Assembly (NCBI GenBank): GCA_022483465.1
Contig: JAKVNF010000003.1
Span: forward strand, 62,001-126,000
Source: Lachnospiraceae bacterium
GTDB taxonomy: Bacteria > Bacillota > Clostridia > Lachnospirales > Lachnospiraceae
DNA: 64,000 nucleotides
Reading direction: 5' to 3'
Shown: positions 36,371 through 54,675 of the stretch, piece after piece
How the letters are laid out: each line of letters opens with the position of its first letter
Numbering within the stretch: position 1 is the stretch's first letter
Program-made: the position numbers and the translations under genes
Notes under the pieces: model-generated
What the model saw: the letters and a program-made list of their open reading frames with translations, nothing else
Database searches by the model: none
What the model was told of the DNA's origin: nothing

Positions 36371-37013
36371 ATGGTCACTGTTTCCTACGACGAGAATGCT
36401 GAATACGAGACCCAGTCGTTACCGCGCTGCCGGTTCTACGACCGGGAGACTGACCTGTGCCGGGTCTACTCCGCGAGAGCTCTGCAGACCCTGCAGTCGG
36501 GACTGATCAAGTGCGGGATTTCCTACTGTCGGAAATTTACAATAGACCGGTAATTACCGAACAAGCGGTAAAGCGTTTTTTCGATGAAAGCCTTGTGTTT
36601 ACTGGGTTGTGATCGATATAAACACACTGTTTATTGCGTTACCGGTCGGCAATGTTCTAAATAGTGAATTTTATCTTGAACAACTGCCGTGGTTACAGGC
36701 TTTCTCATGTGGTGCAACACGTCGTATTGCCGGTTTAAGCAAAATTTCCGACTGTGTGAAGCAGGAGCAGAACGAGCTCCTGCACCGCTTCCTGCACGGG
36801 AACTGCTTCGCGCGGTGCATCGTGCGGGTGCATGAGGACGACATCGAGACCGCCATCGAGATCTGCGACGGCCTGGAGGACGTGGAACTGCTCTGCGCGC
36901 TGCCCAAGCGCGACTACTGCCCGAAAGAGGTGGCAGGCGGCAGGAGAGAACAGAGGACGAGAGATGGAGAAGAAGAGAAGGGCTTCGGAGGGATCTCCCT
37001 CGGCAAAGCCTGA
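36371..37013 (+). pseudogene. Small Cys-rich protein gene interrupted by a MITE-like element
   Basis: The 5' part encodes 53 residues (LPRCRFYDRETDLCRV... to GISYC), preceded by GGGAG and a strong promoter. At 36529 the frame runs into a 221-bp element and stops at 36553. Deleting the element and one copy of its ACTGT duplication joins codon 53 exactly in frame to VKQEQNELLHRFLHGN and a Cys-rich, acidic 3' part, restoring a 138-residue protein ending at 37013. The restored protein has several spaced cysteines and may bind metal; the family is not recognised. A GTG inside the element (36609) opens a chimeric reading frame into the 3' half. Confidence 0.8.
36530..36750 (+). mobile_element. MITE-like element, copy 1 (221 bp)
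   Basis: Ends carry inverted repeats: CGGAAATTT at the left and its complement at the right, with about 19 of the outer 25 bases matching. The element is flanked by a 5-bp direct duplication, ACTGT (36525-36529 and 36751-36755). An identical inverted copy lies at 53685-53905. It contains no transposase gene. An internal 12-bp palindrome sits near 36548-36559. Confidence 0.9.
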
Positions 37014-47906: not shown

Positions 47907-49331
47907 TCACACAGCTAGAACAGGCTTTCGAAAGTTTTTCCATGCTTGTTCTGGTTTGTGCGGGCGTATTGTGTAGTTCCATTTTCTGAGTGCTGAGTCC
48001 TTTTCCCCTTCGTTGTAATACTCTATGTTGATATCTTCGCGTAGTTCAATGGTATCGATTATTCCGTATGGGATCAGACCTTTCTCCAACATCTGCTTCT
48101 TCTCGGATGCGGAAAGGTAGATGTGTGATGATGACTCCGCCTGTACCAAAAGCCCGGTCCGGGTGCTTGCGTGCCGTGTGTATTCCATTGCATGCTCCAG
48201 TGTCTGAAGCGGCTTGGCGGCACAGGTTCTTGTTACCTGTGACCACAGCCTTCTTTCGATCGGGTTGTACTTTGATGTTCCCGGCGGATAGTGACAGACA
48301 CTGATCTTCAGCCCTGTTGCATCTCCGATCTGATGAACCGCCTCTTTCCACAGGTATCCTCTGGCTTTGTTGCTTCCGCCTCCGTCAGCAAGGATCAGCA
48401 GACGCTTTGAATTCGGATATGCCGCTTTCCCCTGTACCTCCCACCATCGGATGATGGCTTCTGCAACGAATTCCGACGTATCCCTGCTTACTCCGAAGAG
48501 CACAAAGCCGACATTCCTCCTGACATCGTAAACGCCATACGGCGATACGATTGCCAGATTCTTCATCAGTTCAGGTGGAATCAGGCTGCTTCCTTCCGGA
48601 TAGATATCTCCAAACGTGCAGGCAAAATCGTGATCCCATACCTTTCTGGGATCGTGTTTTTTCCTCAACTCACGTCCGGAATGATAATAGTTGCCCAACT
48701 GCATCTTTGCCTTGGTGTCAATCGAGATAATCGGATCTCCGCTGGCCTCAAATGACGCTCTTTCCTCCGCAATCCTGCAGAACTGAGCATCTCTTTCAGG
48801 ATGTGCTTTGCCAACCTGATCGTACTTCTGGTTCTTTTGAAAGGAATAGCCAAGCTTTTTGATGACCCGCTTTATTGTTGCATGGCCATAGCAGCACCCC
48901 GTCCTCGCAAGTACTTCATCACGTACTTTCTGAACGGTGACATTGATCCATTTGGCGTTTGACATCGGATCCCCGTATGAGCAGTCGTCTACGATATCAT
49001 CGATAATCCCAATGATGTCGGCTGCTGCGTCAAGGTCTATACCAGTGAACCCTTTCTTCGCCATTTCCATGCGGTGTTTCTTCTCGATAGGCCACCGACC
49101 GCCGCCATGCTTCCTGTTATGGTCGCCTTTATTGAAAATCTGACCCTCAAGGACTTCCTGCATTCCACGGCCGATCCTGTTCCTGCTGACATGGCAGTAA
49201 CGGCTGAGGGCAGAAATAGCACCACGCCCTTTTTCCAGCGCTCTGCGCCCGAGATAAAGACGTACCGCTTTCTCGGGCAGTCCAAGCAGTGTGTCTGCAA
49301 TATTTTTCAGTTCCAGTAGTGTGAACCCCAA
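47907..49331 (-). CDS. ISAzo13-family transposase
   Basis: A DDE transposase of the ISAzo13 type, about 474 residues from a proposed TTG start. GRGAISALSRYCHVSRNRIG is the helix-turn-helix region. The catalytic core shows IISIDTKAKMQLGN (first Asp), LLILADGGGSNKARGY (second Asp) and HYPPGTSKYNPIERRLWSQV (Glu region). An ATG-type start at 49379 exists but lies inside the neighbouring IS1634, so it is an artefact of nesting. The element's own ends were not resolved. Codon use is lower in GC than the chromosome. Confidence 0.88.
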   Translation of the reverse strand: MGFTLLELKNIADTLLGLPEKAVRLYLGRRALEKGRGAISALSRYCHVSRNRIGRGMQEVLEGQIFNKGDHNRKHGGGRWPIEKKHRMEMAKKGFTGIDLDAAADIIGIIDDIVDDCSYGDPMSNAKWINVTVQKVRDEVLARTGCCYGHATIKRVIKKLGYSFQKNQKYDQVGKAHPERDAQFCRIAEERASFEASGDPIISIDTKAKMQLGNYYHSGRELRKKHDPRKVWDHDFACTFGDIYPEGSSLIPPELMKNLAIVSPYGVYDVRRNVGFVLFGVSRDTSEFVAEAIIRWWEVQGKAAYPNSKRLLILADGGGSNKARGYLWKEAVHQIGDATGLKISVCHYPPGTSKYNPIERRLWSQVTRTCAAKPLQTLEHAMEYTRHASTRTGLLVQAESSSHIYLSASEKKQMLEKGLIPYGIIDTIELREDINIEYYNEGEKDSALRKWNYTIRPHKPEQAWKNFRKPVLAV

Positions 49332-49348
49332 AATCGCAAAGTTTTTTA

Positions 49349-51560
49349 CTAGCGGGAGTTTCGATTTAGGACAAAGCAAAACCCTTGCGAAGCCAGATGT
49401 TTAGCGGCTTCGCAAGGGTTCACTTTTGTATCGCCCAATTACTATTCTGTAGTTAATTCTTTCTTAGTTTTCTTTTTTTATCCCTTTTTACATTATCTGG
49501 CGAAGGTATCTTCTCGACGATATTCCACATGCTCTGCAGACTTGGCGTTAGTTCCTCGAGTGCCCTGACTGCCTTCTTCTGACCCGGCATCAGAATCCAT
49601 CCGTCGTGGATTTTGCACAACTCGTCCAGCATTGCCGCCTTTGTATAGGTAAGACCTTCATCTGCCATCCGTCTTCGAAGTACCTCTGCGATCGTGATCG
49701 CGAGGAAGCAGAGAAAGACGTGTACCCGGATCTTGTCGTCTGTCCAGTGATACTGCGGGCGTACGGCAAAGTGGTCCACTTTCTTGCTCGTCTTGAAGAG
49801 ATCCTCAATGCACTCCTGTGAAGCATACGAAGAGAGGACCTCCTCCGTCGACCAGTCCGTTCTGTCGGTGCAGGTCAGCTTCTTGCCGTAGTACTTTCTC
49901 TTATAGACTGCCAGTTTCGCTTCATCGAGCTGGAAGCTCACATCGTATCCGCTCTCCATGTTTCCGGAAGGGATGATGGTGATGAACTGCTCCAGCGTGC
50001 GCAGCCCCGTGAAACAGCTGCGGGTAAGCTTCAGAAACTCACTGGCTTCGTCCCATACCGGGACCTCCTTTGGCTTCTTCTTTCGTCCCTTCTTCGCCTG
50101 ATCTTTCTGCTCCTTCAGCAGCTCCTCGTTTTCCTTCGTGACCTCGCTGATCTGCTTTTCTACCTCGGTTTTGCGCTTCCTCATGGAAGAGTAGATGCGG
50201 GATCTGGGATTCTGGCAGCGAGACCTGAACTCCTCAAACTTTGCCTTGAACTTCTCGATGTCCCGGCCCATCTGCGCTTCCTGGCCGATGTACAGATCCT
50301 CGCTGTACGTCAGAATGCCCGTTCCGGTGATTCCGGAAAATGTGAGCCCGTCGATGCGGTATGCACGTCTTGTGTGGCCGTTTGCAAGCTTCACTTCCTG
50401 GTACTGATCCACGTCGATGTCATACAGCTCTTTATGGGAGTCGAGTGAGTGGGCGCAGATGAAGTGTACCCGGAGGGACTTGAAGTTCTCCTCCGAATTG
50501 CTGCCGCCATCGAAAGAAACCGTGACTTCGTCCAGAGATTTCCCGATTGTATCCGGGAGATCCTTCTGTACCTTCTCCATGAATGCACCGAACTCTGCCT
50601 TGTCATTCCTGCTTCCCTCATACATCTCCCAGAGGACAGGAACCTGCAGCAGATGACTGGTGATCATCGCAAGACTGAACTGCCGCAGATCAGTCCGCTT
50701 CTGCTTGTTGTGCCCCCGCTGGCACACCACGCAGCGGCCGTTCCGGGTGTCGATGTAGGTGAAGTAATTCGTGTAGTCGAGGTGCAGGTCGTTCAACTCA
50801 TCGGGGTACATCTCGAGCAGTCTTTTGGTGAGCAGCTGCTGTGCTTTGTGGACTTCCTCCTCGGAGATCCCGTCCATCGCTTCCCAGAATGCCTGGGAAG
50901 ACAGGGCTTCCGGTGCGAAGCCGAGATGATACGGGAGACTTGTTGTCTGCGCCCAGGCGGAAAACGCTTTCTTGCTGGCAGGATCGATTGCTCTGTGAAT
51001 AGCAGCAAGCAGGAGCACTCTGCTGCGGGACATCCCTTGGATTGTCTTGGATGAAAACGCCTCGTCCAGGATCTTCTCGACTCCAATGTACTGAGCCATG
51101 CGGAACATCGCCATCGGTCCGCCATGCGAATAGCACTTGAACCTCACCCCGCCAGTTTCATGTTCCGCCTGTTTTCCAGATGCGTTTCCCTTTGGGTCAC
51201 CTGTCCGGAGGTAATACTCGTTCAGCACACGATCGAAGAGTTTGTCAACAGGGCCGATGTATTCCAGGACGACCTCTTTGGGGTACTTGCTCCCTGGAGC
51301 CCGTCTACTGGTGACGATGTAGTAGTAATCATGTCCCTTTTTGGTTTTCTTTCTGATTGACGCCATGTATCGCCCTACCTATATATCCCTTAAATGCTTG
51401 ATTATTATATCAATATGTGTTCGATAAGTCAATGAAATAGGACATAAATCAATAGTCTACACATAGAAGTAATAGGGCGATACATTTAGGCCAACAAAAA
51501 AGCATGGAAACACGGTCAAAACTCCGCGTTTTCATGCTGAAATGTCGAAACTCCCGCTAG
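49349..51560. mobile_element. IS1634-family insertion sequence with CTAG target duplication
   Basis: Inverted ends CGGGAGTTTCGA (49353-49364) and the complement (51545-51556) are bounded by CTAG at both outer sides, read as a 4-bp duplication (49349-49352, 51557-51560). The single transposase gene fills the interior on the minus strand. A strong hairpin lies at about 49384-49421 after the gene. The insertion sits just upstream of the ISAzo13 transposase. Confidence 0.85.
49453..51366 (-). CDS. IS1634-family transposase
   Basis: A 637-residue DDE transposase. It has YYYIVTSRRAPGSKYPKEV at the N-terminus, HLDYTNYFTYID (first acidic region), VTVSFDGGSNSEENF and a long coiled-coil insertion (about 370-420, Glu/Lys-rich). 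The C-terminal DGIS-type strand YASQECIEDLFKTSKKVDH contains the catalytic Glu. Full length with no frameshift, so likely active. Confidence 0.92.
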   Translation of the reverse strand: MASIRKKTKKGHDYYYIVTSRRAPGSKYPKEVVLEYIGPVDKLFDRVLNEYYLRTGDPKGNASGKQAEHETGGVRFKCYSHGGPMAMFRMAQYIGVEKILDEAFSSKTIQGMSRSRVLLLAAIHRAIDPASKKAFSAWAQTTSLPYHLGFAPEALSSQAFWEAMDGISEEEVHKAQQLLTKRLLEMYPDELNDLHLDYTNYFTYIDTRNGRCVVCQRGHNKQKRTDLRQFSLAMITSHLLQVPVLWEMYEGSRNDKAEFGAFMEKVQKDLPDTIGKSLDEVTVSFDGGSNSEENFKSLRVHFICAHSLDSHKELYDIDVDQYQEVKLANGHTRRAYRIDGLTFSGITGTGILTYSEDLYIGQEAQMGRDIEKFKAKFEEFRSRCQNPRSRIYSSMRKRKTEVEKQISEVTKENEELLKEQKDQAKKGRKKKPKEVPVWDEASEFLKLTRSCFTGLRTLEQFITIIPSGNMESGYDVSFQLDEAKLAVYKRKYYGKKLTCTDRTDWSTEEVLSSYASQECIEDLFKTSKKVDHFAVRPQYHWTDDKIRVHVFLCFLAITIAEVLRRRMADEGLTYTKAAMLDELCKIHDGWILMPGQKKAVRALEELTPSLQSMWNIVEKIPSPDNVKRDKKRKLRKN

Positions 51561-51688
51561 GCGTCCCGGGATGACTCCATTAAAATGTCAATAGACGTTG
51601 GAAATAGGGCATAAAACGACATTGTAACCTCTGTAAAATGCTAGTATAATAACTGATAGATATTTTACTAGCAATTTAGAGGGCGGCC

Positions 51689-53410
51689 ATGTACAGCAAT
51701 ACAGATGTACTCGTTAAAACTCCGAAATCAAGCGACAAGGGAACTATCCATATCCTCACCACGGGTTATGTCTTGCTCGCCACAGAGTATCATTGGGACT
51801 CTGAGAAGCGGCGTCCTGTCGACAAACGGATCTCAATCGGAAAAATTGTCGATGGCGATCGCTCTCATATGCATCCAAACAAGAACTATGAGCAGTTCTT
51901 CGGTCCCATCGATGCTGAGGTGAACCGACTGAAGGACACCTTCGGCACAAAGGCCCGTAAAGCTGCCGGCAAAACGGATTCGAAGCTCTCCTTTGGACCG
52001 TACCTGGTTCTAAAGGCGGCCGCAGAGCAATCCGGATGCTATACCGCTCTGACACGGGTCTACCCTGAATATGAGCGGAAAATCATTGCATTGGCCGTCT
52101 ACTCCATTGTTGCGGAAAGTTCAACTGCCCAGCTGTTTCCCGGTTGGTGTTTTGATCACTACTGCGGTCTGGATCGTGTCATCGACGACAGTGAAGTCAG
52201 CGGCCTATACCGTCTGATCGGGTCAGATGAGGGAAATATCAATGTGTTCTTCCGGATTTTCCGGGAAGAATACGAGAAACGATTTCCCCGAAAGGACAGC
52301 AATCGGGTCATTGCCTTTGACTCCACCAATCAAAACACCCAGTCCGAGAATGAAGATCTTGCAGAGTTCGGAAAATCCAAGACCGATTTTGGCCTGAAGA
52401 TCATTAACACGGCTATGTTTGTGGATGAAGAGACCGGCATTCCTATGTGGTATGAGCACTACGACGGTTCTCTCCTGGATAAGGTGCAGACGTCCTTCTC
52501 ATTGAAAAAGATCGTGGATGCAGGATATCAAAAGCTGTTCGCAATGTTCGATCGAGGATACTTTTCAGAGGACATCATCAAAGCCCTCCGGAAAGTAAAG
52601 GATCTGGAATATGGTGTCCTCTGTCCAGACAATGTCAACTGGGTAGATGCGCTCATCAAAGATCATGGAGCGGAGATCCGCGGAAAGCAGAAATACCTGA
52701 CGACGGAGCCCAACGTATTTGGAAAGCGGTACCCGGTAACAGTGGCTGGAAAGGCTTGCTTTGCCTACCTCTTCTTTGATCACTCCCGGGAATTTGATGA
52801 GGAACAGTCCATAAGGAGCACTATTTCCTATTACTTCAATGAGGCATCCAAGAGAAAACGCTACACGGAAAAGATGGCGCAGGACTACGCTCCAAAAGGG
52901 ATCATTGTCGTTAAAAAGGCCGATCCAGAAACAGGGAAGAACTTCACCATCCTGGAGGACACTGAAATGATCCAGACGATGGTCGATCGTGCCGGATTCT
53001 TTGTTCTCGTCAGTGATACTGAAATGACGGCATCCGAGGCAATCCGGATTATCCGGCGACGTGATGTTGTGGAGCACGTCTTCGAATCCATCAAGCGGCA
53101 CTTTGATCTGTCGGTCACATACACCCACTCCATCGAGACATATCGGGGGAAGATGTTCACGGCCTTTATCGCAAGCATTCTCTTTGCCACGCTGACATGG
53201 GATTTGAGGGAAGTGCTTCACGATAAGACCAGTGCAACCATCGCCTTCGAGATGATGGAGCTAAACAAGTATAAGGTGGAACTGCAGTCTGATGGCAGTT
53301 GGTATCCGTCCTATGCGATGAGCAGGATTCAGAAGGAACTGGTCTCCAAGGTTGGCCTCACAGAGGACGAGGCAATCAACCAGGCAACTGAGATCAAGCT
53401 GCTAGTATAA
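51689..53410 (+). CDS. IS4-superfamily transposase (DDE, IS1634-like)
   Basis: A 573-residue transposase. N-terminal YVLLATEYHWDSEKRRPVDK resembles the wing of IS1634-like enzymes. Catalytic regions are VIAFDSTNQNTQSENED (first Asp), KLFAMFDRGYFSEDII (second Asp) and RRRDVVEHVFESIKRHFDL (Glu). Intact, with AGAGGGCGG upstream of the ATG. The 3' end (53401-53436) resembles, in inverted orientation, the sequence at 49318-49353, so the element borders are entangled with the IS1634/ISAzo13 pair. Confidence 0.88.
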   Translation: MYSNTDVLVKTPKSSDKGTIHILTTGYVLLATEYHWDSEKRRPVDKRISIGKIVDGDRSHMHPNKNYEQFFGPIDAEVNRLKDTFGTKARKAAGKTDSKLSFGPYLVLKAAAEQSGCYTALTRVYPEYERKIIALAVYSIVAESSTAQLFPGWCFDHYCGLDRVIDDSEVSGLYRLIGSDEGNINVFFRIFREEYEKRFPRKDSNRVIAFDSTNQNTQSENEDLAEFGKSKTDFGLKIINTAMFVDEETGIPMWYEHYDGSLLDKVQTSFSLKKIVDAGYQKLFAMFDRGYFSEDIIKALRKVKDLEYGVLCPDNVNWVDALIKDHGAEIRGKQKYLTTEPNVFGKRYPVTVAGKACFAYLFFDHSREFDEEQSIRSTISYYFNEASKRKRYTEKMAQDYAPKGIIVVKKADPETGKNFTILEDTEMIQTMVDRAGFFVLVSDTEMTASEAIRIIRRRDVVEHVFESIKRHFDLSVTYTHSIETYRGKMFTAFIASILFATLTWDLREVLHDKTSATIAFEMMELNKYKVELQSDGSWYPSYAMSRIQKELVSKVGLTEDEAINQATEIKLLV

Positions 53411-53684
53411 AAACTTGCGATTTAGGGGTGAACAGCTTTTTTCGCATGGCAGTCTGGTGTTGCCAGGTGGAAAGATGCTGTTGGACTGTAGGTTTTATGA
53501 GGAAGTTGACTGGGCCTTGTTCAGGATCTCAGCGCTGCGGGATACCGCTGTTTTCATTCTCTCGAGCTGCTTCTTGAGCGAGTCCACTTCCTGATTCAGT
53601 TCCCGGATTTTTGCAGTGAGTTCGCCTATCTCAGCCCGCTGATTATTGATCGTCTCCTCACAGCTGTCGGTATTCTGCTTTTGA

Positions 53685-53905
53685 CGGAAATTTTGCTTAA
53701 ACCGGCAATACGACGTGTTGCACCACATGAGAAAGCCTGTAACCACGGCAGTTGTTCAAGATAAAATTCACTATTTAGAACATTGCCGACCGGTAACGCA
53801 ATAAACAGTGTGTTTATATCGATCACAACCCAGTAAACACAAGGCTTTCATCGAAAAAACGCTTTACCGCTTGTTCGGTAATTACCGGTCTATTGTAAAT
53901 TTCCG
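53685..53905 (-). mobile_element. MITE-like element, copy 2 (221 bp)
   Basis: An exact reverse complement of 36530-36750 over all 221 bases. On the left it is flanked by TTTGA (53680-53684). On the right the matching TTTGA appears only after removal of the adjacent 308-bp element (TT at 53906-53907 joined to TGA at 54224-54226), showing that this copy inserted first. Confidence 0.9.
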
Positions 53906-53907
53906 TT

Positions 53908-54215
53908 GGCGTTAGTTAAGAAACGGGTTGATAAGCGATCGCCTAGCATGAGACCACTAATACCTCACTTTGAGCTCGAGCTGGGTACACTCCTATCCGT
54001 GCTGTGTTGCATCATGTAACAAAGCATCACCTAGATTGCCTAAACACATACACTCACTTGCCGAGTATGTGACTATAAATAACAAGATAGGCATTATGCG
54101 GAGAAGAAAAGAGCTCCAAATGGGGATTCTATATCTTCATCGGACATTATCGCGTCGAGAGTTCACCATGGAGGTTGTGGTATGGAACCCATCAACCCGG
54201 TTCTTTACTAACGCC
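53908..54215. mobile_element. Second MITE-like element (308 bp) with 8-bp target duplication
   Basis: The ends are inverted repeats, GGCGTTAGTTAAGAAACGGG on the left and its near-complement on the right, matching at 24 of 28 positions. It is flanked by TTTCCGTT on both sides (53900-53907 and 54216-54223). The left duplication covers the last bases of the 221-bp element, so this insertion came later. No transposase gene inside; the interior has no gene that I can support. Confidence 0.85.
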
Positions 54216-54675
54216 TTTCCGTTTGAAGCAGCTCCGATTCACGAGTTACGGATTTCACTTTACGGCCGGGTTTATGTGAGCTTGGTACGAATTCTTTAGT
54301 GACCGGATCTTCATATCCGATATAAGTTCGCTTGGGCCGGGACTGCTTGGTAACGGGATCGTAGTAAGACTTGCTCTCATAAATGCTTACCCAGCCGGTC
54401 TTCTTATTCGTGTAACGAACGATTGACATAGGAACTCCTGACTGCACCTGCAACACCATTACAGTCATTATAATACATACCATGATATCTGCCCATATCG
54501 AAATGGTATTTATAATGGTATTTAATAAGGTGCTCATACTTAAGAGTCTCCGCCTCAAGGGAAAGAGCTCTTTTGGACTTTCTATATCATCGCCGATGAG
54601 CAAAAATCAATCAACTCGTAGGTTAAAAGAACAGTAGTTTGCATTAAGTCTTACACAAGAAACAACTCCAATCAG

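Follow-up and report, generated by a model that had tools for sequence, protein, structure and literature searches.

MITEs are short non-coding transposons that depend on a transposase encoded elsewhere for their movement, and the target duplication made by elements of the IS1634 type is 5-6 bp in length. Two described MITE families are closest to the elements reported here. In the available part of PMC3852290, an IS1595-linked MITE, that of ISHwa6 in Haloquadratum walsbyi, is given as 165 bp with 25-bp ends, 8-bp duplications and 7 copies, and an IS1634-linked MITE, that of ISMba11 in Methanosarcina barkeri, as 247 bp with 20-bp ends, 6-bp duplications and 23 copies. The same text includes nested prokaryotic elements, known as 'Russian dolls' (PMC3852290). 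Target duplications of 8 bp, or of 7-9 bp, are stated for the IS1595 family in the available text of two sources (PMC8101967, PMC12561309), and one of 6 bp for ISPfe2 in that of a third (PMC3281130). Bacterial families exceeding 100 copies are also described in the part available of PMC10969869, with >120 copies for Correia elements and as many as 711 for ERIC.

The stretch of DNA analysed here, referred to as the window, is 64,000 bp long and corresponds to bases 62001-126000 of contig C3 in a 4.30 Mb genome of four contigs. It includes a small ORF on the minus strand (53495-54429, with the ATG at 54429 and the stop at 53495) that is 130 codons long when uninterrupted, and that is broken by two MITEs, both on the plus strand. 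One is a 221-bp MITE with IS1634-type ends, located at 53685-53905. A second window copy of this MITE, on the minus strand at 36530-36750 and with a 5-bp duplication of its own, is identical to 53685-53905 at 221/221 positions when reverse-complemented and compared within the window. The other, at 53908-54215, is a 308-bp MITE with IS1595-type ends, one of ~115 family members in the genome, and its inverted ends match at 23 of 25 bases, or at 24 of 28 over a longer stretch. The whole is very probably an insertion sequence containing two adjacent MITEs, which inserted in succession.

The order of the insertions can be read from the duplications. The 221-bp element is flanked by the 5-bp duplication TTTGA, the left copy of which lies at 53680-53684 and the right copy, displaced by the 308-bp element, at 54222-54226. 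The 308-bp element is flanked by the 8-bp duplication TTTCCGTT, at 53900-53907 on the left and 54216-54223 on the right, and this sequence is composed of TTTCCG, the last six bases of the 221-bp element, followed by TT, the start of its TTTGA. As the TTTCCGTT duplication straddles the junction between the 221-bp end and TTTGA, the 308-bp element arrived after the 221-bp element, and the order gene, 221-bp element, 308-bp element is forced. The two elements adjoin, being separated by two bases, which could be taken to favour arrival of the 308-bp element before the 221-bp element, or joint insertion of both as a single unit. Either course has next to no likelihood, as both copies of the 308-bp duplication hold six bases of the 221-bp end, which were already present at landing, the other six copies of the 221-bp element have no 308-bp element attached, and 308-bp copies elsewhere have duplications of their own. 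In a preliminary description of this DNA, the borders and duplications of both elements had been given correctly to the base; the 24/28 match of the 308-bp ends and the order of events proposed there are likewise upheld, as are the borders when judged by other genomic copies of both families.

The 221-bp element is present in the genome in seven copies, all of them identical, and a scan of the own genome with its end pattern gave 7+7 matches (control 0+0). Duplications of 5 bp flank five of the seven copies (ACAGT, ATAGT, GATGG, ATAGA and TCAGT) and one of 6 bp (AACAAA) flanks a sixth, the seventh being the nested copy. The end scans also led to four 2070-bp elements with related ends, the transposase of which (616 residues) scores 107.6 bits against the NCBIfam IS1634 model (cut-off 100). 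Three of these four copies have 5-bp duplications, and copy L207 has none. When the MITE ends were set against those of the 2070-bp element in four comparisons, 17-19 of 25 bases were identical, and none of 20,000 shuffles did so well in any of the four. As judged by end similarity and duplication length, the 221-bp element is a MITE whose source is likely the resident 2070-bp IS1634-family element. A transposase 99% identical to that of the 2070-bp element is encoded in a genome labelled Eubacterium sp., which suggests recent transfer or close kinship, and one that is 91% identical over the first 106 residues is encoded in an uncultured Lachnospiraceae genome. The ends of the 2070-bp element are also present in the Eubacterium sp.-labelled genome (locus L244, JAJGAH010000361.1). 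In a congener (G050), a 214-bp element with related ends was seen; of two copies examined, one has a 5-bp duplication.

The 308-bp family is far more numerous. An internal 32-mer, allowing up to 3 mismatches, gave 57+58 matches in the genome (115 in total; reversed control 0+0), 69 of which are exact, and at least 31 of the one-mismatch matches listed have one common base change. The end pattern gave 170+167 matches in the own genome (reversed-pattern control 0+0), a count that includes the ends of related IS1595 elements. Duplications were surveyed in 70 copies with distinct flanks, drawn from 213 fetched own-genome loci in a family of ~115 members, and were 8 bp long in 61 copies, 9 bp in seven and absent from two; 51 of the 70 copies are identical to the window copy. 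All 61 of the 8-bp duplications and all seven of the 9-bp ones have A or T at the two outermost positions of either side. The corresponding pattern, WWNNNNWW, fits 3.8% of window positions, and TTTCCGTT (TT-TCCG-TT) obeys it. A control comparing empty and filled sites was provided by another element, three copies of which are without the 308-bp MITE and have ATCGTTTA once, while six copies with the MITE have ATCGTTTA on both sides. The family comprises two subfamilies, and at L074 a copy of the commoner subfamily is inserted within a copy of the other. Neither the 308-bp family nor the 221-bp element was found in 30 relatives (18 congeners), many of which are incomplete drafts, and this absence is counted as support for a recent origin of both.

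Tandem runs of the 308-bp element were also observed, with four units at L073 (G000:C1:1013500-1017500) and two at L248 (G000:C2:927500-930900). The units are parted by an identical 8 bp that also flanks each run. Along the four-unit run, two versions one base apart take turns, as if the duplication had received a second insertion to form a pair, which had then doubled.

A length of 308 bp is too short to encode a transposase, and mobilisation in trans is predicted. The genome includes resident IS1595-type elements of 1187-1214 bp that have ends in common with the MITE. Over its first 28 bp the MITE has 96% identity with the end of one of these (IS B) and 82-90% with the ends of another (IS A), and over 25 bases the best agreement between MITE and IS1595 ends is 24/25. 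Two resident transposases score 116.6 and 110.6 bits against the NCBIfam IS1595 model (NF033547; cut-off 75), and 45.6 and 46.4 against Pfam PF12762 (cut-off 27). Among six resident IS1595 copies looked at, four have duplications of 8-9 bp and two have none; three of the four duplications fit the A/T rule and TCAGGAAA does not. The ends and the duplication length point to the 308-bp element being a MITE with a likely resident source in the IS1595 family.

The earlier proposal that two different transposases acted at this site is well supported, because the ends of the MITEs differ, their duplication lengths do not overlap (5-6 versus 8-9 bp) and the related resident families are different. A single transposase could be envisaged for both if the difference in duplication length were noise, given that the duplications of IS1634-type elements vary here between 4, 5 and 6 bp. 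This is highly improbable, since the lengths are 5-6 bp in all six measurable copies of the 221-bp element and 8-9 bp in all 68 measurable copies of the 308-bp element, a comparison of the 221-bp element with the 308-bp and IS1595 elements revealed no match at the ends, and the resident IS family with related ends is not the same for the two MITEs. The action of two transposases is thus strongly supported by these sequence comparisons. In the proposed course of events, the 221-bp MITE would first have been put into the small ORF, with duplication of TTTGA, by a transposase of the IS1634 type, for which the 2070-bp element or a close relative is the most likely supplier. The 308-bp MITE would have come later, brought by an IS1595-type transposase to the point where the 221-bp element meets the right-hand TTTGA, with duplication of TTTCCGTT.

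When 308+8 and then 221+5 bases are removed on paper, one TTTGA is left and 130 residues can be read without a stop on the minus strand; the 542 bases removed in total are not divisible by 3. The preliminary description had both elements excising in frame. The frame is indeed opened by their removal on paper, and no evidence of actual excision was seen. When the joined 130-residue sequence was used as a query, matches were found in 19 of the 62 genomes of the genus, the own genome included. BLASTP comparisons with the joined frame gave alignments that cross the join for 27 of 28 related ORFs. Among these 27, L175 is an unrelated protein that matches through its coiled coil only, and the exception (L158) is the closest homologue (69%), the alignment of which ends at residue 62. 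The join falls in a variable linker between the conserved N-terminal part and a coiled coil, and the homologues therefore confirm that both halves belong together, and not the exact residue of the join. The claim that removing both elements restores a 130-residue gene is consistent with the open frame and with the 27 ORFs that cross the join, and a check for homologues naturally lacking the joined part did not refute it. A direct empty-site copy of the locus is not present in the genome, where the small ORF has no second copy (next best ≤47%).

The nature of the broken gene was also considered. Its 71-residue start has 28 other matches in the own genome, at 42-47% identity. A structure model of a homologue has a small beta domain and a coiled coil, and the sequences tried did not pass the cut-off of any curated family. 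The next downstream ORF was classed at 19 related loci (16 in congeners and three in the own genome) and is transposase-like at every one, the best model being IS66 at 14, IS701 at three and IS4 at two; three of the 19 exceed the curated cut-off (both IS4 and one IS66), and most of the ORFs are truncated where the locus ends. In the window, the next gene downstream on the same strand is that of an ISAzo13-family transposase. Its main part is at 47907-49326 (minus strand), within an ORF (47907-49379) that runs into an inserted IS, and its putative start, severed by an IS1634 insertion, is at 53428-53447 (minus strand), with 47 bp between it and the small ORF's stop. The transposase scores 349.1-349.2 bits against the NCBIfam ISAzo13 model (NF033519; cut-off 200), and adding the putative start leaves the score flat (349.2 versus 349.1 bits).

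Given the transposases downstream at the 19 loci and the ISAzo13 transposase 47 bp away, the small ORF is taken to lead an ISAzo13-family insertion sequence as its first gene, which is its most likely identity on grounds of adjacency, strand and paralogy. If it were instead an ordinary host gene lying outside any mobile element, the failure to find a convincing inverted pair of ISAzo13 ends between the two outer sides of the locus would be accounted for, and the start codon assigned to the transposase is itself a predicted one. The transposase-like neighbour at 19/19 classed loci, and the ISAzo13-family transposase on the same strand here, make a host gene unlikely. The preliminary description missed that the broken gene probably belongs to an insertion sequence and not to the host.

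A second nest lies in the ISAzo13 transposase gene. The outer IS1634-family element (49327-53427, plus strand), the span of which was set by comparison with other copies, encodes a 573-aa transposase (51689-53410) and has a 6-bp duplication, GTGAAC. In its left end sits an inner IS1634-family element (49353-51556, minus strand) that encodes a 637-aa transposase (49453-51366) and has a 4-bp duplication, CTAG, which is shorter than usual. The transposases of the inner and outer elements score 235.9 and 169.1 bits (cut-off 100). The right side of the ISAzo13 host element is overlain by an IS200-type element that ends near 54667. Elsewhere in the genome, a copy of the 308-bp MITE was seen inside another copy of the outer element's gene (L027) and, as judged from flanking bases, in another copy of the IS200-type gene at the side of the nest (L035).

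The small ORF was also found in an element with an IS66-like transposase (91.8 bits at L080, below the cut-off of 180). At six loci of this element (L081-L086) the 308-bp MITE lies just past the start of the small ORF with the same duplication at each; MITE-free counterparts are present at L078-L080. The identical duplication at the six loci indicates that the element kept multiplying after the MITE had inserted. At L081, the MITE's own frame continues in frame into the small ORF, giving an open frame of 204 residues. Tentatively, the small ORF may encode an exchangeable helper of transposition that has been taken on, each time as the leading gene, by the unrelated transposase families IS66, IS4, IS701-like and ISAzo13 in the genus, a reading that is somewhat doubtful at present. 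If it is true, the MITEs that interrupt the ORF, here and independently in the IS66-like element, would show if transposition requires the helper. Continued spread of the IS66-like element with the MITE in its helper gene (six loci) may be due to a new in-frame start supplied by the MITE.

Each part of this locus is already known in kind, as IS1595- and IS1634-linked MITEs have been published, and it is a clear new example that leaves the understanding of how MITEs work unchanged. It is an unusually clean case, in which single bases reveal the order of insertion and the genome at large allows it to be checked. Two MITE families are also connected with the transposases that probably move them. 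For an IS1595-type MITE the target rule is strict, with A/T at two outer bases per side, and a previously undescribed small ORF common to several insertion-sequence families has come to light.

Like the ISHwa6-linked MITE in the available description, the 308-bp element has 25-bp ends resembling those of a resident IS1595 element, 8-bp duplications and no transposase gene. It differs from that MITE in length (308 versus 165 bp), in number (~115 members versus 7) and in host, and in having two subfamilies and tandem runs. The 221-bp element is similar to the ISMba11-linked MITE, as far as the text available describes it, in length, in ends of ~20-25 bp, in duplications of 5-6 bp and in its IS1634-type partner. 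Unlike that MITE, it is present in seven identical copies rather than 23, occurs in a different host and has ends that are only 17-19/25 like those of the resident partner. The putative host element resembles ISAzo13-family insertion sequences in its transposase (349 bits) and departs from them in the small ORF in front. Finally, as in the 'Russian dolls' of the available account, elements lie within elements and can be separated by their ends and duplications, whereas here two independent, readable nests are found in what is probably one host element.
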